A stretch of DNA of 36,771 nt from a virus: positions 1 to 36,771 of IMG/VR virus record IMGVR_UViG_3300012944_000020. One strand, written 5' to 3'. Position 1 is the first letter of the stretch. Each line of letters begins with the position of its first letter. The position numbers and the translations under genes were made by a program. The notes below the pieces were generated by a model, which saw only the letters and a list, made by a program, of their open reading frames with translations, made no database searches and was not told the origin of the DNA. Positions 6,916 to 28,556 of the stretch are shown here, one piece after another.

Positions 6916-9900
6916 ATGGGCGCTTTTTCAGGCAGCGGACTTTCGCTCGGAACCCTTTGGGTCAATATAGCCGCTTCGGTCGATGACGCGCTGGCTGAGT
7001 TCACGAAGTTCTCGAAGGATGCGACCGCCCTTGCCCAAACTGCGGGCGCGAGTATCACGGATAGTCTCGACGTAACTATAGCAGCGCCCGATTTGTCGCC
7101 CTTGAGCGCTGCTATGGCAACGGCTGGTGAATCCGCCAAGCAGGCGGGCGAGCAGTTGAACTTGTTCGCGGCGGATGCTGATGGAATTTCCTTTGCGAAC
7201 GCGGACGGCCAGCTCAACATGTTTACCGACGAGCTGGGCGCCTTCGCCAGTGGGACCAAGGACGCGGAGGCCGGGGCGAGCGGGCTCGGCCAGGCATTCG
7301 GGCAGTTAGGCCAGGAGGCAGCTTCCGCAGGGGAGGATGCGCATTCGGGCGGCGAGGGTTTCGCCGAGTTTGCCGACAAGATTCCCCTGATCGGCGGATT
7401 ACTCGCCGCGCTTGCGGGCGGAGCCTTGCTCGACATCGGCAAGGAACTGCTCGACATTGGTGAGAAAGCGATCCAAGTCGCTGAAATCTTCGACAATGCT
7501 TCGATTCAGATGGAACGCGCCACGGGAGCTGAAGGTCAAGCTCTCGCCGGTTTGGATGAGAGTTTTAAGACGTTATTTGCCAACTCCTCAGCCTCGGCAG
7601 AGGGAATCGCCACCGCGCTAACGCAGATCACTGTACGCACGGGAGCCACGGGAGCCGCGCTTGAAGAGCTGACTAAATCCGCGATTGACTTCGCCAAGAT
7701 CACTGGAACGGATCTTGCCACTTCGGTTCAGCTCAATGAGAAATTATTCGCGCGATGGAGCATCGCCACCGCGGACCAGGCCGGCAAACTCGATGTCTTA
7801 TATGAAGCCGCGCGGCGTTCCGCTGGAACGGTCGCTTCGCTTGCGCAATCGCTCACTACGCTCAGTCCGGTGCTACGTAGTTTCGGTATGGATTTTACCG
7901 AAGCAGCGGCGTTGGTGGGCAGTTTCGAAAAGGCGGGTCTCGACGCCACTGACATGACGATGGGGCTGAAAAGCATCCTTGCGAAATTTGTGGAAGCCGG
8001 GAAAGATCCCAAGCAGGCGCTCGCTGATTTAATCCAGGAATTACAGGACACCGAATCGCGGGAGCAAGCGTTGAAGGCTGGTTTGGACGCCGGGTTGACC
8101 GGACGGTCGCTTCCGGCCTTCGTCGATGCGGTCAAAAACGGAGCCTTCCAGTTGGGTGTAATGAAGACGGCCCTGGATAATGCCGGGGGCAGCGTCGCGG
8201 CTATGGCGGCAAAGACAGACACGTTGTCCGAATCCTGGTCAAAATTAGGCCATGGTGTTCTGGTGTCGCTAGATCCACTAACCAAAGCATTTGCCGAGGC
8301 TTTGGCGAATCTGAATCAGTTTCTCGATGCCCTGTCGCGGGGGAAGGACCTTATTGCAGAAGCGCAAAAGAATGCCCAAAAGATAACGCCGCCGGCAATC
8401 ACAAAGACGGGGACTTCGGATGCTCTTAAAGATCCCACGCTCATTCAATCCCCGGCTCTGCAAGGGATCAACGCGCTTAACGATGCCATAGAGAAGAACG
8501 CCAAAGCGGGCGCGGCATTGGCGAATACAACGCTACCGGGCATAGCAAATGCATTGCAAAAGATAGTCCCGCCGGCGAAGCAGGGTGCAGATGGCCTGAG
8601 GGATCATGCGGCCGCCGCCACTGCCGCCGCCAGTGCCACGGGTCTACTATCGCAGGCCTCTGAAGTCTGGTTTGCGATAGCAAGCAAGTTGACCGCGCTG
8701 CACAAGCAATATATCGGGACTCTCGCGGATACAGCGCTCGGTCTCAAACAAGTGGAGGACGTGACAAAGATCCTAGCGCCATCGGCGGATGGCCTGGGCA
8801 CGGCGCTCGGCACCGTGACTTCCGGTTTAGCGCCAATACCGGCACTGACCGCAGACGTAGCCCAAGTAATCGCTCAATTGGGCAATGAGGCCGGTAATGC
8901 CGTCACGCCAGTCATAACCCTTCAAAACCAGTTACATATTCTGGGACTCAAATCGAAAGAGGAGTATCAAGGAATTGCCGACACGGCAGCGGCTGCTTAC
9001 CGGGCGATTCTAAACGATCAGGATGCGAGCGAGACGGAAATTCTCCAGGCGGAGGAGGTAATGCTTGAAACTCGCATTGCCGCCTGGATTTACGCCGGAA
9101 ACGCCATCGATCAAACCGATAAAGACACTCTCGCCAAGGTAAAGGCGCGGCTTGCTGAACTGGAGGGCTCCATAAAAACCTCCGGGCAGCGCCAGTTGAC
9201 CATATGGCAGGACACCATGAAGAAGGCCGGCCGGATTATTGAATCGGCGGCGGGCACGTTCGCTTCCGATATCTTCAAACGTCTTTTCGAGGGATCGGAC
9301 ACTAACAAGCAGCTCGATCAGCAGGCGGCCGATCTTCAGAAGTCGCTAGCGGACAGGCAGACGGCTCTTGACAAGTTCGAGGCCGATAACAATCAGAAGC
9401 AGGCAGATGCCACTCAGCAATACGAGCAATCGCTCGCCGACGAAGACGCGGCCTACGCCAAATCGCTAGCCGATAAACAGGCAGCCTTCGACAAGGATGC
9501 AGCGGATATCGCCGGGAAACAGGCGAAACTCGACGCGAATTATCAGGCCGATCTCGCCAAGACGACGAAAGATTATCAGGATTCGCTGGCCTCGAAACAG
9601 CAGGACTATGACAAGTTTGTCCAGGATGCGACCGCCGCGGAAGCGGGCAAAGAAAAGGACTTGGCAGACCGGCTCGCGAGCGAACAGAAGGATCTTCAGG
9701 AGTCGCTGGCCAAGGAGACGCTCGACTACAACCGGTATGCCGGGGACGTTACCGCCAAGATCGCCGAGATCCAGAAATCGCACTCGGAATCGCTCGCGAG
9801 CGAGCTGGCGGATCTGGACCAATCATTGGCCGATCGCCGCCAGGAGTACAGCGATTATGTCCAGGACGCCAACCGCTCGCTCGCCCGAATCGGCGAGGAC

Positions 9901-11472
9901 CACGCGCAGAATATCGCCGATCAAACCTCCACCACGCAAGACAACATCGCCGCGCAGACCAAGGACTACAAGCGCTATGCGCAGGACACGCAGGCGCAAC
10001 TTGCGCAGATCCGCAAGAAGCACGGCGGGGTCTACTCGCAGGAAGAGGCGGACCTACAAAAATCATTCGACCGGCGGACCGAGGACTATAACTCTTCGAT
10101 CGATGATCAGAACAAGAAGCTGGCCGACTTCGTTACCGCCGAAAAACGCAAGCAACAGCAGGAGGAACAGGACTTACAGGATAGTCTGGCCCGCAAAGCG
10201 CGAGATCAGGCCGAATATGAAACCCAGATTCAAACCAAGCGCGCTGAGACGATAGGCAAGAACGCAGAGGATCAGGCCAGCGAGATCGCCGCGCAACAGC
10301 AGGCGCTGGCGCGAAAGACGCAGGACTTCGACGCCTACCAGCTGGAGATCGCAGGCAAGCTGACGGCGGCAGAGCAGCAGTATGAGCAGGGGCTTGCCGA
10401 CAACCGCGCCGCGCTTCAACAGGAGCTGACCGACAAGAAAACGGATCTTGACCAATACAATACCGACGCCGCGGGGAAATATGACGCGGACGTGGCGAAA
10501 CTCAATGCGAACTATGCCGAGGACCGTGGAAACCTCGATCAGAACTTGGCGGATAAACTGGCGGATCTTGAGCAGTTCAATACGGACGCCAAAACGAAGC
10601 ATGACGGCAACGTCGCCAATGCCAAGGCCGCTTACCAGCAGACGACTACCGATCTCGAAACGGAATTGACCAATCAGCTCGCCGATTACACGCAATTTGT
10701 AACGGACACAAAGACCAAGCTGGAAGAGATCCGCCAGGCGCATAAGACGCTGTGGCAGGATATCGGCGGCTTCGGGGTATCAGCGATCGAATCGATCGGC
10801 CAGGCGCTCGTTTCGCTGGCAGCAAGCGAGGCCGTAAAAGAACTGGGCAAGCTGGTGTTTGGCACTGCCACAGCAGCGGCGGGCGGGGCGGCACAGGGCT
10901 CGGGCAGCGCGGCAGGCGCGGCCGGCCAGGTCGCGGGCCAGGTCGCCAGCGGGCTCGCTGGCCTGGTGACGGCGATTAGCGGCGTGGTTACATCGATTTC
11001 AAGCGTGATCCAGAATTTTCAGTTGGCCGCCGTCAATAAGTCGCTCGACGTGATTGTCAATCACACACTGCGCATTTTCAATGAACTCTATTACTTCCGC
11101 ATAGATGCATGGAGCCGGTGGAGCAGCTTTCAGTACATCAAGGACGACATCATTAGGGACCTAAACGCGATCATGGATGACAGCAATCTGTCGATCCTGA
11201 AATTCGATGACATGATCACAAAGCTTACTTCGATCAGCGACTCGTCGGCGCATGCATCGGCCATGCTGGATCGCATCGCAGGCGCGCCGGATCAATACGG
11301 CAGCGCTTCTCTACTCGATCAATTATTGACTAAAATCACCAGCCTCTCGGGCAGTCTCGATGGAGCGGGACTTTCCAGCTCTTCGATGAGCATGAATCTG
11401 TACGGCACCGATCCGACGCTTGTCGCATCCAGGATCGCTCAACAATTGCGCTTGCAGGGCGGCTTCTCCTAG
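6916..11472 (+). CDS. Tape measure protein with 40-residue repeats
   Basis: This 1518-residue protein sets the tail length and is the largest gene in the window. Residues 1-160 are helical with Ala/Gly-rich parts; a hydrophobic segment (IPLIGGLLAALAGGALLDIG) near residues 157-176 is typical of the part that enters the host membrane. Residues about 200-520 resemble the TP901 tape measure core, including ATGAEGQALAGLDESFKTLF and a QLNEKLFARW segment. Residues 817-1256 are eleven consecutive 40-residue charged coiled-coil repeats, each starting with a DYxxY/DLxxF-like motif, and a twelfth starts at 1257. A second Gly/Ala-rich hydrophobic region lies near residues 1320-1370. It follows the chaperones by 4 nt and precedes the tail-tip genes. 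Confidence 0.93.
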   Translation: MGAFSGSGLSLGTLWVNIAASVDDALAEFTKFSKDATALAQTAGASITDSLDVTIAAPDLSPLSAAMATAGESAKQAGEQLNLFAADADGISFANADGQLNMFTDELGAFASGTKDAEAGASGLGQAFGQLGQEAASAGEDAHSGGEGFAEFADKIPLIGGLLAALAGGALLDIGKELLDIGEKAIQVAEIFDNASIQMERATGAEGQALAGLDESFKTLFANSSASAEGIATALTQITVRTGATGAALEELTKSAIDFAKITGTDLATSVQLNEKLFARWSIATADQAGKLDVLYEAARRSAGTVASLAQSLTTLSPVLRSFGMDFTEAAALVGSFEKAGLDATDMTMGLKSILAKFVEAGKDPKQALADLIQELQDTESREQALKAGLDAGLTGRSLPAFVDAVKNGAFQLGVMKTALDNAGGSVAAMAAKTDTLSESWSKLGHGVLVSLDPLTKAFAEALANLNQFLDALSRGKDLIAEAQKNAQKITPPAITKTGTSDALKDPTLIQSPALQGINALNDAIEKNAKAGAALANTTLPGIANALQKIVPPAKQGADGLRDHAAAATAAASATGLLSQASEVWFAIASKLTALHKQYIGTLADTALGLKQVEDVTKILAPSADGLGTALGTVTSGLAPIPALTADVAQVIAQLGNEAGNAVTPVITLQNQLHILGLKSKEEYQGIADTAAAAYRAILNDQDASETEILQAEEVMLETRIAAWIYAGNAIDQTDKDTLAKVKARLAELEGSIKTSGQRQLTIWQDTMKKAGRIIESAAGTFASDIFKRLFEGSDTNKQLDQQAADLQKSLADRQTALDKFEADNNQKQADATQQYEQSLADEDAAYAKSLADKQAAFDKDAADIAGKQAKLDANYQADLAKTTKDYQDSLASKQQDYDKFVQDATAAEAGKEKDLADRLASEQKDLQESLAKETLDYNRYAGDVTAKIAEIQKSHSESLASELADLDQSLADRRQEYSDYVQDANRSLARIGEDHAQNIADQTSTTQDNIAAQTKDYKRYAQDTQAQLAQIRKKHGGVYSQEEADLQKSFDRRTEDYNSSIDDQNKKLADFVTAEKRKQQQEEQDLQDSLARKARDQAEYETQIQTKRAETIGKNAEDQASEIAAQQQALARKTQDFDAYQLEIAGKLTAAEQQYEQGLADNRAALQQELTDKKTDLDQYNTDAAGKYDADVAKLNANYAEDRGNLDQNLADKLADLEQFNTDAKTKHDGNVANAKAAYQQTTTDLETELTNQLADYTQFVTDTKTKLEEIRQAHKTLWQDIGGFGVSAIESIGQALVSLAASEAVKELGKLVFGTATAAAGGAAQGSGSAAGAAGQVAGQVASGLAGLVTAISGVVTSISSVIQNFQLAAVNKSLDVIVNHTLRIFNELYYFRIDAWSRWSSFQYIKDDIIRDLNAIMDDSNLSILKFDDMITKLTSISDSSAHASAMLDRIAGAPDQYGSASLLDQLLTKITSLSGSLDGAGLSSSSMSMNLYGTDPTLVASRIAQQLRLQGGFS
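9364..10683 (+). repeat. Eleven in-frame 120-bp (40-residue) repeats in the tape measure gene
   Basis: The motif series ALDKF, AFDKD, DYDKF, DYNRY, EYSDY, DYKRY, DYNSS, DQAEY, DFDAY, DLDQY, DLEQF, DYTQF begins every 40 residues exactly, from residue 817 to residue 1257, with no insertions or deletions. The DNA copies are strongly diverged, so this is an old, selected register and not a recent tandem expansion. Confidence 0.9.
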
Positions 11473-19236: not shown

Positions 19237-19923
19237 ATGGCGAACATCGTGAAATTCGAGATCGGGCAACCCGTCGAGGTTGCCCTGAAGTACACCGAGG
19301 GCAAGGTCTACGACGGCGACTATGGCGAGCGCGTCATGTACTCACTGACTGACGGCCGGGTAATGTACCTCGATCCGCTCACCGCGGCGCGGATCAAGAG
19401 CCTGGGCGTGCAGCCGGGTGAAGCGTTTTTCATCCTGAAGTCGAAGAAAGGCCGGCTGACAGAGTGGTCCGTATTCCGTGAAGGCGATGAACCGCCCGTC
19501 GAGCCGCCCACGCGCAAGCGTACACCTCCTGCGCACGTGCTCGCCGAGCGATTGCCTGAGATCGTGGCGGCGCGGAATGCCGGCGCGAATTTGGAACAGC
19601 AGCTCGCCGATTCGATCACTCTGGTAGAGGCGAAAAAAGCAGCCGGCAGAGCAACCGCGGCAGTCCCTAGCACCGCCGCGGCGCCGGCTCGGGCGGAATT
19701 GCCCGCGCCGTCTCCAGCAACGAATGGCAGTAATTCTACCAGCGCGGAGGAACGTTGGAAAGCGGTGTTGCTCAAGCAAACGAACGCTTTGACGGATGTG
19801 CTCGCCGAGGCGCTTCGCCACAGCTCGCAGCATGGCGGCCTGGTGAAATCGGAAGACGTGCGGTCGATGATGTTGTCCGCGTTTATCAATCTCGCCAAGG
19901 GGGGCAATCAGCGTGCCGCATAA
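19237..19923 (+). CDS. Phage protein with beta-rich N-terminal domain and helical tail
   Basis: This 228-residue protein begins directly at the end of the previous gene. Residues 1-88 look like a small beta-barrel domain (KFEIGQPVEVALKY, RVMYSLTDGRVMYLD, EAFFILKSKKG), which could be an OB-fold able to bind single-stranded DNA. Residues 90-165 are a Pro/Ala-rich linker, and the end is helical with KQTNALTDVLAEALRHSS. A role in recombination or replication is a guess from fold impression and early operon position. Confidence 0.6.
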   Translation: MANIVKFEIGQPVEVALKYTEGKVYDGDYGERVMYSLTDGRVMYLDPLTAARIKSLGVQPGEAFFILKSKKGRLTEWSVFREGDEPPVEPPTRKRTPPAHVLAERLPEIVAARNAGANLEQQLADSITLVEAKKAAGRATAAVPSTAAAPARAELPAPSPATNGSNSTSAEERWKAVLLKQTNALTDVLAEALRHSSQHGGLVKSEDVRSMMLSAFINLAKGGNQRAA

Positions 19924-20185
19924 CGATAGCGAAATGGAATTTCCCACGGTGACCGAACCGTGGGACGCGGGCGAAGAGGCCGTGGTGGTTCCCTTCCGCC
20001 GCCCGCGCCGCCCGAAGACGGCGGGCGAGCCGAAGCCGGCCGCCGCGCGTGCCGTGTCGCTGTCGAGCGTGCTCATGCAGGCCGTACGCGCGGCAGCTCG
20101 GCCTGGCCGGGCCTCACGCGAAGAGACGATCCGCGAGGATACGCTGCTTGAGGTCTTGCAGGTCATGCGGAAGGCGCGGGAATGA
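19913..20185 (+). CDS. Small basic protein of unknown function
   Basis: This 90-residue protein overlaps the previous gene by 11 nt. It starts acidic, then is rich in Arg and Pro (VVVPFRRPRRPKTAG), with a C-terminal helix (REETIREDTLLEVLQVMRKA). It is the last gene before the structured RNA region containing the first ribozyme, so its message would be freed at its 3' end by ribozyme cleavage at 20321. Function not recognised. Confidence 0.6.
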   Translation: MPHNDSEMEFPTVTEPWDAGEEAVVVPFRRPRRPKTAGEPKPAAARAVSLSSVLMQAVRAAARPGRASREETIREDTLLEVLQVMRKARE

Positions 20186-20187
20186 CC

Positions 20188-20265
20188 GCCCGTGGCTTCA
20201 CCCGTGAAACGCACCGGGCGGATGTGGGGAAACGTCCCACAGATAACCGCCCGTGTGCGCTGCCA
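20188..20265 (+). ncRNA. Structured RNA segment upstream of the first ribozyme
   Basis: CCGCCCG (20188-20194) can pair with CGGGCGG (20215-20221), and the same CGGGCGG could instead pair with a second CCGCCCG at 20247-20253. A further 5-bp hairpin GTGGG/CCCAC lies between. GCGGAT (20218-20223) is also complementary to ATCCGC (20265-20270), the 5' strand of ribozyme stem I. These exclusive pairings suggest that the segment could gate ribozyme folding. A 30-codon ORF (20182-20274) also overlaps this region but has no support beyond its ATGA overlap. Confidence 0.45.
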
Positions 20266-20326
20266 TCCGCCTGATGAGCTGCCCGCGCGGGAGCGGGCGC
20301 GAAACCGGCGTTCGGCCGGTCGCGGA
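20266..20326 (+). ncRNA. Hammerhead self-cleaving ribozyme 1 (type I)
   Basis: All core elements of a hammerhead are present in order: stem I strand TCCGC (20266-20270), CTGATGA (20271-20277), stem II (G20278-C20300 and C20279-G20299, one bulged T, then GCCCGC with GCGGGC, loop GCGGGA), GAAA (20301-20304), stem III (ACCGGC with GCCGGT, loop GTTCG), C20321 as the cleavage nucleotide in a GTC triplet, and stem I strand GCGGA (20322-20326). Both required closing pairs, G10.1-C11.1 and A15.1-U16.1, are present. Predicted cleavage is between 20321 and 20322, leaving a 43-nt leader on the gene at 20365. Confidence 0.9.
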
Positions 20327-20335
20327 AATCTCCGC
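20322..20335 (+). ncRNA. 5'-end hairpin of the ribozyme 1 downstream product
   Basis: GCGGA (20322-20326), AATC loop, TCCGC (20331-20335). The second strand repeats the ribozyme's own 5' stem I strand, so the same GCGGA can pair either upstream, giving an active ribozyme, or downstream, giving a released product with a hairpin cap. This would help the products separate and protect the new 5' end. Confidence 0.65.
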
Positions 20336-20364
20336 AAACTATTAAAGGAAAATTCAGAAATTAC

Positions 20365-20832
20365 ATGAAGAAAGTTATTGCATTAAGCCTCTGCCTGGCG
20401 ATCGCTTCGTGCGCGTTCGCGGGCGTAGGCGGCGACAAGGTAGCGTATCGCGGCGGCACCGCCGCCGGCTTGAAAGACGGTTTCGAGGCGAAGGCTAATC
20501 TGAAGCGACCGGATGCTTTTACGTTCGGCACGTTGACCATTCCGTATGACAAGATTCAGTCAATCGAGTACGGCCAGAAGGCTGGCAGGCGCGTTGGCGC
20601 TGCGATCGCGACGGCCGTGCTGGTGTCGCCGGTTGGGCTGTTCCTGCTGTTCTCAAAGAAACGCAAGCATATGGTTTCGCTCACGTGGATGAACGTCGAA
20701 GGTAAGACGGACGCGGCCGTGTTTGAATTCGGAAAGAATGCGATTCGTCCGGCTCTGAAGATCCTCGAAGTGAAGAGCGGTAAGCAGATCGAGTACGAAT
20801 CGGAGGACGCCAAGGCCAATATCGGCAAATAG
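20365..20832 (+). CDS. Exported protein or lipoprotein, bacterial-type cargo gene
   Basis: This 155-residue protein has a clear signal peptide (MKKVIALSLCLAIASCAFAG), with either a lipobox (IASC) or a signal peptidase I site after AFA. The mature part begins with VAYRGGTAAGLKDG and contains YDKIQSIEYGQKAGRRVG, a hydrophobic LVSPVGLFLLF stretch followed by SKKRKHMVSLTW, and ends with SGKQIEYESEDAK. From memory this pattern is frequent in chromosomal proteins of Acidobacteriota, so it may be a captured host gene. It lies exactly between two hammerhead ribozymes: one cleaves 43 nt before its ATG, the other starts 2 nt after its stop codon. An effect on the host envelope is the natural inference. 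Confidence 0.82.
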   Translation: MKKVIALSLCLAIASCAFAGVGGDKVAYRGGTAAGLKDGFEAKANLKRPDAFTFGTLTIPYDKIQSIEYGQKAGRRVGAAIATAVLVSPVGLFLLFSKKRKHMVSLTWMNVEGKTDAAVFEFGKNAIRPALKILEVKSGKQIEYESEDAKANIGK

Positions 20833-20833
20833 A

Positions 20834-20889
20834 TCGTCCTGATGATCGCGGTTGGCTGCCGCGTGAAACGCCCGTGAGGGCGTAGGCGA
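20834..20889 (+). ncRNA. Hammerhead-like self-cleaving ribozyme 2 (type I, variant)
   Basis: The elements are in canonical order: stem I strand TCGTC (20834-20838), CTGATGA (20839-20845), stem II (CGCGG 20847-20851 with CCGCG 20859-20863, loop TTGGCTG), GAAA (20865-20868), stem III (ACGCCC with GGGCGT, GTGA loop), A20884 as cleavage nucleotide in a GTA triplet, and stem I strand GGCGA (20885-20889, one T-G wobble). The one departure is a T-T mismatch (20846/20864) where the family has the G10.1-C11.1 pair, which may lower activity. Predicted cleavage at 20884/20885 leaves a 39-nt leader on the gene at 20924. Confidence 0.75.
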
Positions 20890-20894
20890 AAGCC
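20885..20894 (+). ncRNA. 5'-end GNRA hairpin of the ribozyme 2 downstream product
   Basis: GGC-GAAA-GCC forms a three-pair stem with a GAAA tetraloop starting at the first base of the predicted cleavage product. It uses the 3' strand of ribozyme stem I, the same competing arrangement as at 20322-20335. Confidence 0.5.
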
Positions 20895-20923
20895 AAAAAA
20901 ATCCCCTTGAAGGAAATGGAACG

Positions 20924-21427
20924 ATGCTAAAGAGGGAGAGATTATTCTTAGCTGGCCTTTGCGGGCTGATCGTGATCGGTATGGGGAGCAAGCTGCACGA
21001 TTCGGGGCCGGCCGCGAATCATCCGGCCGTCAGTAAGGCGGCAGCTCAGGCCAGAACAGCGGAGGAGGCGGTGGCTTGGGCGAAAACAGAGGCGTCGGAG
21101 GCGGCGGCTCAGGCGACAATAGCGAAGGAAGCGCGGGCGGTTTCCGCGGCGGCGGCCGTCGAGCCGTCAAAACCCGATTTCGAACTGTTGAATTTCAAGG
21201 GCGAGACGGATCGGTACGGCACAACAATTGTAGGGCGGATTCGGAATAACACGGGAAGGCAATACGATTCGGTCTGGGCCAGTTTCAGTTTATATGATGA
21301 AGCGGGCGAACAGGTTGGCAGAGCATTAGCTAGTGTCTATAACTTGGAACCGGGTAAAGTCTGGAAATTCAAGGCGAGTGGTGAACGCGCCGCAACGTTC
21401 AAGCTTGCTGAGATTAGAGGCTATTGA
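20924..21427 (+). CDS. Membrane-anchored FxLYD-domain protein
   Basis: This 167-residue protein has an N-terminal membrane anchor (LFLAGLCGLIVIGMG), an alanine-rich helical stalk at residues 35-85, and a C-terminal beta domain with the FxLYD signature (VWASFSLYDEAGEQVG) after LNFKGETDRYGTTIVGRI and before LEPGKVWKFKA. FxLYD domains are small extracytoplasmic modules of unclear binding role. A good ribosome binding site (AAGGAA) is 8 nt before the ATG. The gene lies immediately after the second ribozyme, so like its neighbour it is an envelope cargo gene with a ribozyme-made leader. Confidence 0.8.
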   Translation: MLKRERLFLAGLCGLIVIGMGSKLHDSGPAANHPAVSKAAAQARTAEEAVAWAKTEASEAAAQATIAKEARAVSAAAAVEPSKPDFELLNFKGETDRYGTTIVGRIRNNTGRQYDSVWASFSLYDEAGEQVGRALASVYNLEPGKVWKFKASGERAATFKLAEIRGY

Positions 21428-21431
21428 ACCG

Positions 21432-21956
21432 TTATTTGGCAGGCTCGGCCGGCGCGCTCGCGAGACGCTTTCTTTCCTCGATGGCCTTCAGCAGCTTATC
21501 CGTCAATTGTTGGCGGTAGTCTACCGTGCGGATCTCGTTTGACGTGGCGTCAAAAGTCTGAATCCGATGAGCCTCTAAAACCTCACGCATGATTTGAACG
21601 AAGGCCGCGCCTTGCGCCGGGTCCACGTCGCCCGCGGCGACTTGCGCGAGTACCTTGTGCATCGCTTCCCGCAGTTGCGCGGGATTGGCGGTTGCCGGCA
21701 ACTGGATATCGATTGGCGCGGTGCGAGGCCTCGGCCAAACGCGATCCAAAATCAGGCGGGCGGCAAGCACGTCGCCCGCGATGGCCTGATTGATCAGAGT
21801 TTGCACGATGCGCGGTGCATCCTTGTGAGCCATCGCCTCAAGCGTCCGGAAGCGCGTAGTATTCCGTGGCCGGCCGCCTCGGTTCGTAACCTCGGCCGCG
21901 CGCTCGGAATCCTCCAGGGGCTCCAGAACCTCGGGAATGAGCGGCTCTTGCTCCAT
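21432..21956 (-). CDS. DUF5681-like protein, possible small-terminase relative
   Basis: This 174-residue leftward protein has the layout of DUF5681 proteins: a GRPRNTTRFRTLEAM opening near residue 28, then QTLINQAIAGDVLAARLILDRVWPRPR and a DIQLPA strand. The rest is helical (AHKVLAQVAAGDVDPAQGAAF). Such proteins are common in prophages near terminase genes and may bind DNA, but no function is established. Here it lies far from the large terminase, between the cargo operon and the integration genes, ending 4 nt from the convergent FxLYD gene. Confidence 0.7.
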   Translation of the reverse strand: MEQEPLIPEVLEPLEDSERAAEVTNRGGRPRNTTRFRTLEAMAHKDAPRIVQTLINQAIAGDVLAARLILDRVWPRPRTAPIDIQLPATANPAQLREAMHKVLAQVAAGDVDPAQGAAFVQIMREVLEAHRIQTFDATSNEIRTVDYRQQLTDKLLKAIEERKRLASAPAEPAK

Positions 21957-22361: not shown

Positions 22362-22829
22362 ATGGCGACTCCTAAATCGCAATACCTCTCGAAGCGGGCC
22401 GCGGCCGATCTTCTGAAACTTAGCGTGCGGCGCGTGATGGAACTCTCGACAGAAGGAAAGTTAAAACGTTACCGGCGGTTCGACTCCGAGACGCGGCGGC
22501 AGACGGCCGTCTTCCGCGCCGATGACGTCGCACGGCTGGCTTCCGAATGGGCGGCGCAGGCAGAGCCGCTTCTGAATGCCGCGGATCTTCCCATCGGTCT
22601 GCCGCCCGCGCCGCGGGCGCTGCCAGCGCCGTCCGCCATGCCATCCGCGCCGCGAGCGTGGCTCACCTTTGATGAGAGCGCCGGCTATTCCGGCCTTCCG
22701 GCCTCCGTGCTGCGCGATCTGGTCGCGGCGGGCCGTTTGCCGGCGCTCGATGTCGGCGTGCGGCCAGGCGGCCGCTATCGCGTGCGGCGCAACGATCTCG
22801 ATGCGCTCGAAGGCGAGCGGATCAGCTAG
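22362..22829 (+). CDS. Excisionase-like protein with two helix-turn-helix domains
   Basis: This 155-residue protein carries two MerR/excisionase-type helix-turn-helix domains. The first is at residues 7-60 (YLSKRAAADLLKLSVRRVME, wing, then VFRADDVARL). The second is at about 100-153 (WLTFDESAGYSGLPASVLRD, then GGRYRVRRNDLDAL). A Pro/Ala linker joins them. It is convergent with the integrase, and their stop codons overlap on CTAG. Excisionases bend DNA at the attachment site and bias the integrase towards excision; two joined domains could bind two sites. The start ATG has no ribosome binding site but follows a TGTGATACACT element by 8 nt, suggesting a leaderless message. Confidence 0.75.
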   Translation: MATPKSQYLSKRAAADLLKLSVRRVMELSTEGKLKRYRRFDSETRRQTAVFRADDVARLASEWAAQAEPLLNAADLPIGLPPAPRALPAPSAMPSAPRAWLTFDESAGYSGLPASVLRDLVAAGRLPALDVGVRPGGRYRVRRNDLDALEGERIS

Positions 22830-23791
22830 AGGCCGAGTTGCCGGCATGGATTCGTGCGTAAGGCATAGATCGGCCGGAAGTAGGTTCGCAGCATTTCGAG
22901 TGAGGCGTGGCCGGTGTGATCCATGATGTGAATGTCGTTGACGCCGGCGAGAATCGCCTCGGTGACAAAACCGGAGCGGAGCGAGTGCCCGCCGTAGGAT
23001 TTGGAATCAAGGCCGATTGCGTGTGCGGCGTGCTGTACGATTTGACCAATCCGGTTGCCGAGGATTGCGCGGCCGGTTGGCTTGCCGTTGCCAATACCTT
23101 GGAAGAGCGGGCCGGGTGAGTTGCCGCGCCATTTAATCCACGCCTTGACTGCGGTTATCGGGCAGAGTGAGGCATCTTTGCCGAGGGGTATGGTCACTGT
23201 GCGCCCACTGCCTAAGCGGTCTTGTTTTTCGTGGCGGATATGAGTTGTAATACTTACTTCGCTGATAGAGAGATCGTCAAGAGTCAATTGGGCCAGTGTG
23301 GAACGGCGAAGGGCGGTAGCGAAGCCGAAAAGTAACAGGGCCGAGTTTCTAGCCTGTATCGCAGTGGCGTTGCCGGTGTGCTCGATCATCTTGCGTAACT
23401 CGATAAGCGTGAGGGCGCGCTTTTGTTTGGGCTTTTGGCCGAGCATCCGTTTAGCGCCGATCAGGACGGCGCGCACGGCCTGATTGCATGGATTCGGGAG
23501 GCCGGCGAATGAATGGGCATGGCGAATCGCGCTGACGTGCCGTTGTAGGGTACTTACCTTTCTGCCGTGGCCGATTAGATCCGCTATGTATAGTTCGATG
23601 GTGTCCGCGGCGGCGGGCAGGCTAGTAAGTTGTGCGGCCTCACACCATGCTTGAAAGACGCGGAGATCGCGGCCGTAGCTCGCGATGGTATTTCGGCTGT
23701 AAGTGGCAGCCCTAAATTGATCCCGTTGCCGCTTCACGATCTCGAAACTCGGCGCGGGAAATTGCACGAATGCATGTCGGGGAGATGGCAT
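22826..23791 (-). CDS. int: Tyrosine recombinase (phage integrase)
   Basis: This 321-residue integrase carries the phage into and out of the host chromosome. The N-terminal SAM-like core-binding domain covers about residues 20-110 (YSRNTIASYGRDLRVF). The catalytic domain shows the active set: Arg162/163 in ALRRS, Lys189 in HEKQD, His269 and Arg272 in GGHSLRSGF, His295 in DHTGHAS, and the nucleophile Tyr304 in LRTYFR. Start at 23791 is chosen because the longer frame to 23857 has no initiation signal. A perfect TTGACA lies at 23817-23812, but its matching -10 would overlap this ATG, so promoter and start are not settled. Confidence 0.93.
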   Translation of the reverse strand: MPSPRHAFVQFPAPSFEIVKRQRDQFRAATYSRNTIASYGRDLRVFQAWCEAAQLTSLPAAADTIELYIADLIGHGRKVSTLQRHVSAIRHAHSFAGLPNPCNQAVRAVLIGAKRMLGQKPKQKRALTLIELRKMIEHTGNATAIQARNSALLLFGFATALRRSTLAQLTLDDLSISEVSITTHIRHEKQDRLGSGRTVTIPLGKDASLCPITAVKAWIKWRGNSPGPLFQGIGNGKPTGRAILGNRIGQIVQHAAHAIGLDSKSYGGHSLRSGFVTEAILAGVNDIHIMDHTGHASLEMLRTYFRPIYALRTNPCRQLGL

Positions 23792-23857
23792 GTAGTAAAG
23801 TGTGTGATTGATGTCAAGCGCACAATCAGAGGGGAAAGGAGGTAGCAGAACGAACAT

Positions 23858-27120: not shown

Positions 27121-27277
27121 GCCGGTACGGACAGTCCGTGAGCACGTGCGCGATAAGCTGCAAAATCTCAATCTGCGGCAGGAAGAGCGTACACGCCGGC
27201 GACGACAGGGCAGCCGTCGGCGTGTACAGCCGGAGACGGAGCAGCGCTCGCTAGACTTCGAGGATGATCAATCTTGA
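27089..27277 (+). CDS. Small, very basic protein before terminase
   Basis: This 62-residue protein is extremely rich in arginine (ERTRRRRQGSRRRVQ) with an acidic end. It overlaps both its neighbours, 32 nt before and 14 nt after. The position immediately before the large terminase is where a small terminase often lies, but this protein has no helix-turn-helix that I can see. It may bind DNA or RNA simply through charge. Confidence 0.55.
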   Translation: MAKQLHLVPPKPVRTVREHVRDKLQNLNLRQEERTRRRRQGSRRRVQPETEQRSLDFEDDQS

Positions 27278-28556
27278 CCTCGGCGCTACGCCAGAACATA
27301 TCGGGGATGCGGTCAAGGGTCTGTCTGATGCCGAGATTGCGAGCGTGCTCTACCACTGGCCGAATTGGGCGCGGCCGGAACAACTCATGCCGCCTGGCGA
27401 GTGGCGGACGTGGATACTACTTGGCGGCCGTGGCAGCGGCAAGACACGGCCAGGGGCGGAAGCGATTCGGCAAATCATGACAGACTATCCGGGTATCCGC
27501 GTGGCTCTGATCGGTCCAACGTCGAGCGATTGCCGCGATGTGATGATCGAAGGCGAATCCGGTTTGCTGAACTGCTTTCCGCCCGAAGAGCGGCCGTACT
27601 ACAAACCATCGCGCCGCCTGATTCAATGCCGCAACGGATCGGTAGGGTTCACATACTCGGCCGAGGAGCCGGAACGGTTGCGCGGGCCGCAACACGGCGC
27701 GGCCTGGCTCGATGAGATCGGCACGTATCCCGATCTGAAAGCGCTATGGGATTTGATGGTTCCGGGGATTCGCCTCGGCACATTCACGCGGCGGATCGCC
27801 ACGACGACGCCGCGGCCGTTGCCGTTCTTGCACGAGCTGTTGAAAGATCCGACCTCGCGCATTTCGCGGATGCGCACTAAAGACAATGCCGCCAATCTCC
27901 CGAAGGAAACCATCGAAGAGTTGTACCGGATCTATGGCGGTACGCGCATCGGCCGCCAGGAGCTCGACGGCGAATTGTTGGAGGAAGCGGAAGGCGCCCT
28001 CTGGACTCACTCCCGCATCGATGCGCTACGGGTGCGGCCGGAAGATGTGCCGGAACTGGCGCGCATTGTTATTCCGATTGATCCGAGCACAACGAGCGGG
28101 CCGGATTCGGATGCTTGCGGTATGGTGCCGGTGGCGCTCGGCGTCAATGGCCACGGCTATGTGCTCGATGATGTCACGGCGGTGCTATCGCCCGATGATT
28201 GGATCTCGCGGGCGGTTGCGCAGTATGACAAGTGGGATGCGGACCGGATCATCGGTGAGGCGAATAACGGCGGCGATCTCATCGAATCGCTGCTACGCAC
28301 GCAGCGCAAGAATATTTCCTATGAGAAAGTTCACGCCTCGCGCGGTAAGATCACTCGCGCCGAGCCGGTTGCGGCGCTCTATGAACAGGGCAAGATCCAT
28401 CACGTGATCGGGCGCAATTTGAAGGATCTTGAAAACGAGATGTGCAACTACGTGCCGGGTATGTCCAAGTCGCCGAACCGCATGGATTCGCTGGTGTGGG
28501 GCGTGTCGTATCTGATGCTGAAGAGGATGCGGGTAGGCGGATCGCATTCGATATGA
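27264..28556 (+). CDS. terL: Terminase large subunit
   Basis: This 430-residue motor packages DNA into the prohead and cuts it. The ATPase domain has a Walker A motif GGRGSGKT at residues 54-61, a Walker B WLDEIG ending near residue 153, and the coupling segment RIATTTPRP near 177. The nuclease domain begins near residue 265, with the first metal ligand in IPIDPSTTSG (Asp273) and later acidic sites in GEANNGGD and NRMDSLVWG. The length and motif spacing match the Terminase_6/GTA-type large subunit. Portal, protease and capsid follow after an accessory region of about 4 kb. Confidence 0.93.
   Translation: MINLDLGATPEHIGDAVKGLSDAEIASVLYHWPNWARPEQLMPPGEWRTWILLGGRGSGKTRPGAEAIRQIMTDYPGIRVALIGPTSSDCRDVMIEGESGLLNCFPPEERPYYKPSRRLIQCRNGSVGFTYSAEEPERLRGPQHGAAWLDEIGTYPDLKALWDLMVPGIRLGTFTRRIATTTPRPLPFLHELLKDPTSRISRMRTKDNAANLPKETIEELYRIYGGTRIGRQELDGELLEEAEGALWTHSRIDALRVRPEDVPELARIVIPIDPSTTSGPDSDACGMVPVALGVNGHGYVLDDVTAVLSPDDWISRAVAQYDKWDADRIIGEANNGGDLIESLLRTQRKNISYEKVHASRGKITRAEPVAALYEQGKIHHVIGRNLKDLENEMCNYVPGMSKSPNRMDSLVWGVSYLMLKRMRVGGSHSI

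Follow-up and report, generated by a model that had tools for sequence, protein, structure and literature searches.

Hammerhead ribozymes clustered around single genes in prophages were reported by Perreault et al. in 2011 (PMC3088659). Clusters lie at ardA of Agrobacterium tumefaciens, in Azorhizobium caulinodans and in Clostridium scindens; they cleave in vitro, the Agrobacterium cluster also cleaves in E. coli, and processing into single-gene mRNAs was proposed for them at that time. What phage hammerheads do has been an open question since 2011, and a review in 2017 still called it open. RiboJ, an engineered sTRSV hammerhead joined to a 23-nt hairpin (PMC6206723, PMC8794103), increases the amounts of both transcript and protein in E. 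coli (PMC6206723).

Here we describe two hammerheads, HHR1 and HHR2, in an IMG/VR virus record of 36,771 bases, the whole of which was analysed and is referred to as the window. The original prediction held that two ribozymes divide a cargo operon of this phage, and it knew of no described phage system of this kind. The latter statement is corrected by PMC3088659, which describes one, and by our survey, in which the layout is routine.

Phage record and gene context

Both ribozymes belong to a small cargo region that follows the forward operon and precedes the integrase gene (Table 1). The transcript of the final upstream operon gene presumably continues into the ribozyme region, and a weak consensus scan from 20185 to 21427 found no promoter-like site and no terminator-like site on the plus strand. 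A convergent gene (21432-21956, minus strand), with a weak DUF5681 match below the cut-off (E 0.0005), lies 4 nt past the stop codon of cargo gene 2, and no terminator-like site was found between the two. Among named phages, no similar DNA or protein was found for the window. No viral locus was obtained for the relatives of cargo protein 2 or of the integrase, and four terminase relatives contained no hammerhead.

Table 1. Positions of the ribozymes, their parts and the neighbouring genes in the window.
Feature	Position	Strand	Remarks
Tape measure gene	6916-11472		
Final upstream operon gene	19913..20185	+	90 aa, without assigned family
HHR1, type I hammerhead ribozyme	20266..20326	+	GUC triplet; descriptor scan; predicted cut 20321/20322
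HHR1 stem I	20266-20270 with 20322-20326		UCCGC with GCGGA, 5 pairs
HHR1 core	20271-20277		CUGAUGA
HHR1 stem II	20278-20300		8 pairs and a U bulge
HHR1 loop II GCGGG	20287..20291	+	possible pseudoknot partner of 20331-20335, by complementarity; moderate confidence
HHR1 GAA	20301-20303		
HHR1 stem III	20304-20320		H17 is C20321
5' end of middle RNA	20322..20335	+	predicted hairpin GCGGA-AAUC-UCCGC after cleavage; UCCGC 20331-20335 also pseudoknot strand
Cargo gene 1, exported protein	20365..20832	+	155 aa, N-terminal signal-like segment
HHR2, type I hammerhead ribozyme	20834..20889	+	GUA triplet; predicted cut 20884/20885
HHR2 stem I	20834-20838 with 20885-20889		UCGUC with GGCGA, 5 pairs
HHR2 core	20839-20845		
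HHR2 stem II	20846-20864		U.U first, then 5 pairs
HHR2 loop II UUGGCU	20852..20857	+	fully complementary to AGCCAA 20891-20896; 6-bp pseudoknot
HHR2 GAA	20865-20867		
HHR2 stem III	20868-20883		H17 is A20884
5' end of last RNA	20885..20896	+	predicted hairpin GGC-GAAA-GCC after cleavage; AGCCAA also pseudoknot strand
Cargo gene 2	20924..21427	+	167 aa, N-terminal membrane or signal segment and FxLYD domain
Tyrosine integrase gene	22826-23857	minus	
Terminase large subunit gene	27264-28556		

The two cargo genes were as first described, one with a signal-like segment in its product and the other encoding an FxLYD protein (FxLYD_dom NF038353, E 3.7e-20; phrog_14275, E 7.1e-11). The product of cargo gene 1 had no match in Pfam, PHROG or NCBIfam. 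Its homologues were found at L001, L002 and L143-L172, and relatives occurred in 29 of the 297 Acidobacteriota genomes that were sampled. To this phylum belongs a Pyrinomonadaceae genome in which the homologue adjoins what we take to be an M16 peptidase gene. The family is widespread in Acidobacteriota chromosomes. Because of these chromosomal relatives, the host of the phage is probably a soil acidobacterium, and capture of cargo gene 1 from the host is suggested.

None of the 32 homologue loci (30 genome loci, L001 and L002) contained a ribozyme. The idea of a ribozyme travelling with cargo gene 1 was therefore rejected, and the ribozymes are ascribed to the phage operon and not to the cargo gene. 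The original prediction had named loci without ribozymes but with conserved gene order as evidence against it; in these ribozyme-less loci the phage gene order was not conserved. The idea that hammerheads are frequent in the Acidobacteriota was also dropped, as a strict pattern that matches HHR1 occurred in 0 of the 297 genomes.

Two type I hammerheads in the window

A descriptor scan allowing bulges found exactly two type I hammerheads in the window, and a search for any arrangement of CUGANGA, stem II and GAA returned just the same two. Both have the CUGAUGA and GAA strands, the A15.1-U16.1 pair, H17 and predicted cleavage at an NUH triplet, and both consist of three stems, of which stem I is open and stems II and III are closed, as in the type I class. 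Coordinates and scan agree with the sites and with the 5'-OH ends predicted earlier (20322 and 20885), and the leaders, expected at about 40 nt, measure 43 nt for HHR1 and 39 nt for HHR2 to the ATG codons.

Nothing in the whole window reached the Rfam gathering score, which is an annotation threshold and not a structural criterion, and which is too strict for these hammerhead forms. RF00163 (Hammerhead_1) aligned to every core position of HHR1, in which all consensus positions are present and 10.1-11.1 is a G-C pair. The alignment scored 14.2 bits, below the cut-off of 34, and the length of stems II and III is the probable reason. HHR2 had no Hammerhead_1 match in Rfam; its score was lowered by a U.U mismatch at 10.1/11.1, the stem II pair beside the core, which is its sole departure from the consensus.

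The weak Rfam score, together with a high GC content that makes short stems easy to form, might point to hammerhead-like sequence arisen by chance. However, 300 third-order Markov simulations of one 36.8-kb strand yielded 0 comparable motifs, and the HHR1 pattern occurred once in the window and in 0 of 100 shuffles. Moreover, the two motifs share a strand, lie 568 nt apart and are each followed directly by a gene. We therefore regard chance as extremely unlikely; both motifs look genuine and well placed, and they are probably active.

A different concern is that HHR1 alone is active and HHR2 is a decaying copy, so that a single cut would leave both cargo genes on one message. The U.U at a pair that is usually G-C, the lack of an Rfam match and the triplet GUA instead of GUC would all fit such decay, and the mismatch may slow HHR2. 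Against this, every other position of HHR2 is intact and its loop II can form a 6-bp pseudoknot. In PMC3088659, U10.1-U11.1 is reported to be tolerated: it is among the natural hammerhead variants and, on evidence cited there, is more active than any other mispair. A variant scan of viral contigs for the U.U pattern gave one convincing match, the phage relative L129 (2217-2260); the remaining 15 of 16 matches were apparently due to chance, as their pairing failed. L129 shares the GUA triplet with HHR2, and its stem II (UCGCGG...CCGCGU) is nearly the same. Its stem I, which is still paired, and its stem III differ, and its pseudoknot pairs with other letters (UGGUU/AACCA, compared to UUGGCU/AGCCAA in HHR2), as would be expected for a selected variant. 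Because L129 keeps the mismatch, stem II and the pseudoknot pairing, HHR2 is more plausibly a functional variant than a remnant, and we consider decay improbable.

Ribozymes of retrozymes are near-identical repeats that yield circular RNAs. A comparable fate can be imagined for the RNA of cargo gene 1, which would be excised as a predicted 563-nt molecule and then circularised in a viroid-like or retrozyme-like manner, either by reverse action of the ribozymes or by a host ligase. As in retrozymes, a single unit is indeed enclosed by two type I hammerheads on the same strand, and the ends of the excised RNA, 5'-OH and cyclic phosphate, would match. But HHR1 and HHR2 differ in stems and loops, and UCGUC, the 5' strand of stem I in HHR2, does not form a proper helix with the GCGGA that HHR1 leaves at the 5' end, which disfavours re-ligation by the ribozymes. 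Perreault et al. also sought circular or spliced products in their study and found none (PMC3088659). The circular RNA appeared very unlikely and was rejected on the mismatch of the ends.

Recurrence of the layout in other phages

The survey comprised about 180 further phage hammerheads, among the matches listed; its two large scans demanded a canonical G-C rich pattern, and it is a sample rather than a census. Among the matches listed, 29 of 107 hammerhead loci held two to seven ribozymes; in these 29 loci the ribozymes always shared a strand and were spaced by a median of 645 nt. In the first set, again among the matches listed, the median leader to the next start codon was 26 nt (IQR 22-32). 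An ATG with a Shine-Dalgarno-like site 15-60 nt downstream was present for 72 of 142 of the hammerheads listed, compared to 7.8 at random positions, and 155 of 167 followed a same-strand ORF ending within 160 nt upstream. In 158 of the listed hammerheads the upstream ORF had 60 aa or more; its stop codon lay between -11 and -7 relative to the core in 72 cases, where about 3 would be expected if stops were evenly spread, and it was the core's own UGA in 20. Loci L077, L084 and L106 exemplify a stop 7-11 nt before the core. HHR2, which begins 1 nt past the stop codon of cargo gene 1, has the textbook placement (-9), and HHR1 does not (-88).

L023 (8745-13228, minus strand) and L033 (592-4545, minus strand) contain seven ribozymes each, nearly every one directly ahead of a small ORF, and these runs are far denser than the pair in the window.

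Examination of other phages for the order of ribozyme, gene and ribozyme, as had been advised, thus revealed the same arrangement in many of them, with unrelated genes. The genes adjoining ribozymes in these phages had no common annotated function. Because the layout recurs in this way, the envelope-protein cargo, by which the original prediction had defined the messages, is not a defining property.

The position of the stops raises the possibility that the ribozymes are regulatory switches, in which cleavage is not constitutive but is set by translation of the upstream gene, by salt or by a ligand. Surveyed upstream stops commonly lie just before stem I, HHR2 fits this exactly, and a terminating ribosome would therefore cover stem I and the core. 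However, the stop upstream of HHR1 is 88 nt away, a ligand-binding domain is not apparent, and compact packing of genes also accounts for the placement. Regulation of this kind is rather unlikely in our opinion.

Hairpin and pseudoknot

The small hairpins GCGGAAAUCUCCGC and GGCGAAAGCC, proposed as one element in an order of ribozyme, hairpin, leader and gene, were both found in the sequence. They are not a separate module, though, but an alternative pairing of the 3' strand of stem I. Because this strand is also the 5' strand of the hairpin, the hairpin is incompatible with the intact ribozyme. The 3' strand of the hairpin is complementary to loop II, and the pseudoknot and hairpin pairings are mutually exclusive. 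The hairpin is better read as a candidate switch, in which the 3' strand of stem I would re-pair once cleavage occurs.

By complementarity, the loop II contact comprises 6 bp in HHR2 and 4-5 bp in HHR1, as expected of type I hammerheads; a pseudoknot of this type was estimated for about 40% of hammerheads by Perreault et al. (PMC3088659). Confidence in the HHR1 pseudoknot is only moderate because the region is GC-rich, and this pseudoknot and its hairpin could partly be due to chance because the pairs are all CCGC/GCGG. In the minimum-energy folds of both isolated precursors, the product hairpin took the place of stem I, and misfolding could therefore reduce the fraction that is cut.

We examined this double use in phage hammerheads from two scans after removal of redundancy, using tails swapped between ribozymes as the control. 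Set 1 (138 ribozymes, among the matches listed) contains HHR1 and HHR2, and set 2 (41 ribozymes) is independent. The pseudoknot was found in 27 of 138 in set 1, among the matches listed (11.5±2.9 in tail swaps), and in 22 of 41 in set 2 (12.9±2.6). Pseudoknot and product hairpin occurred together in 18 of 138 of the listed matches of set 1, compared to 3.1±1.6 in tail swaps, and in 17 of 41 in set 2, compared to 7.6±2.2; these excesses are indicative and not exact probabilities, because some of the ribozymes are related to each other. The product hairpin alone exceeded the control in set 1 (matches listed) and showed no excess in set 2 (20 vs 16.8±2.3). It was dropped as a general feature, and our claim is limited to the coupling of hairpin and pseudoknot because the hairpin alone was not replicated. 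L129 does not have the product hairpin, so the hairpin is not universal.

Discussion

On the anatomy of the two ribozymes, their non-randomness, the recurrence of the layout in phages and the enrichment of the pseudoknot and hairpin double use, we consider it likely that these type I hammerheads act as intercistronic processing sites, cutting the operon transcript into separate messages. The modular device suggested earlier, with two ribozymes splitting the end of a cargo operon and leaving short defined leaders, is still the best inference, and it is the claim of novelty that has to be given up.

RNA polymerase would continue past the upstream operon and across both cargo genes. Once the 3' strand of its stem I had been made, each ribozyme would fold with the help of a pseudoknot linking loop II to the tail, and would then cut its own strand. 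The first message would carry the upstream operon, with the hairpins of stems II and III at its end and a terminal 2',3'-cyclic phosphate; the second would be the 563-nt RNA of cargo gene 1 with its 43-nt leader; and the third would be the RNA of cargo gene 2 with its 39-nt leader. After the cut, the freed 5' strand could refold with the pseudoknot strand to form a hairpin at the extreme 5' end, which should hinder re-ligation and might shield the 5'-OH end, much like the separate hairpin of RiboJ. An effect on stability or translation of the messages may follow.

More tentatively, phage type I hammerheads may be a general intercistronic punctuation with a pseudoknot-to-cap-hairpin switch, although we hold this to be possible rather than probable. 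If it is true, the upstream message gains a hairpin at its 3' end, and a defined leader is left on the downstream message. Among ribozymes of the pseudoknot class, the tail strand would hold the active fold and later build the cap hairpin, making cleavage irreversible, and cleavage would possibly be sensitive to a ribosome terminating upstream. The locus is a clean two-ribozyme example that was missed by Rfam, and the quantitative rules from the survey (strand, spacing, stop, start and reusable strand) make the idea of mRNA processing directly testable.

Compared to known systems, the pair resembles retrozymes and other circular RNAs with hammerheads (PMC4918200) in that paired type I hammerheads bracket a unit, but here the two ribozymes are unlike and their ends are incompatible. 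HHphage of the haloviruses HF1 and HF2 (PMC3088659) is likewise a phage hammerhead immediately ahead of a start codon (13 nt); it differs in being a core variant with insertions, at an early helicase gene in a haloarchaeal host. RiboJ, which serves as a trimmer of 5' leaders, shares the order of ribozyme, hairpin at the new 5' end, leader and gene. However, it is synthetic and its hairpin is separate, whereas the hairpin proposed for the phage would be built from strands that the ribozyme already uses in stem I and the pseudoknot, and the likeness is a functional analogy and not membership.

The closest relatives are the prophage clusters of PMC3088659. Shared with them are several same-strand hammerheads flanking single genes, the pseudoknots and the U10.1-U11.1 mismatch, and, with the Agrobacterium cluster, the position between tail and integrase genes; the cargo genes and the probable host differ. 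The passages of that paper considered here mention neither an alternative hairpin nor a preferred position of the stop codons. The pair in the window is therefore a further case of the known clustering of prophage hammerheads, and what the present analysis adds is the geometry of stop and start codons and the double use of one strand in pseudoknot and hairpin.
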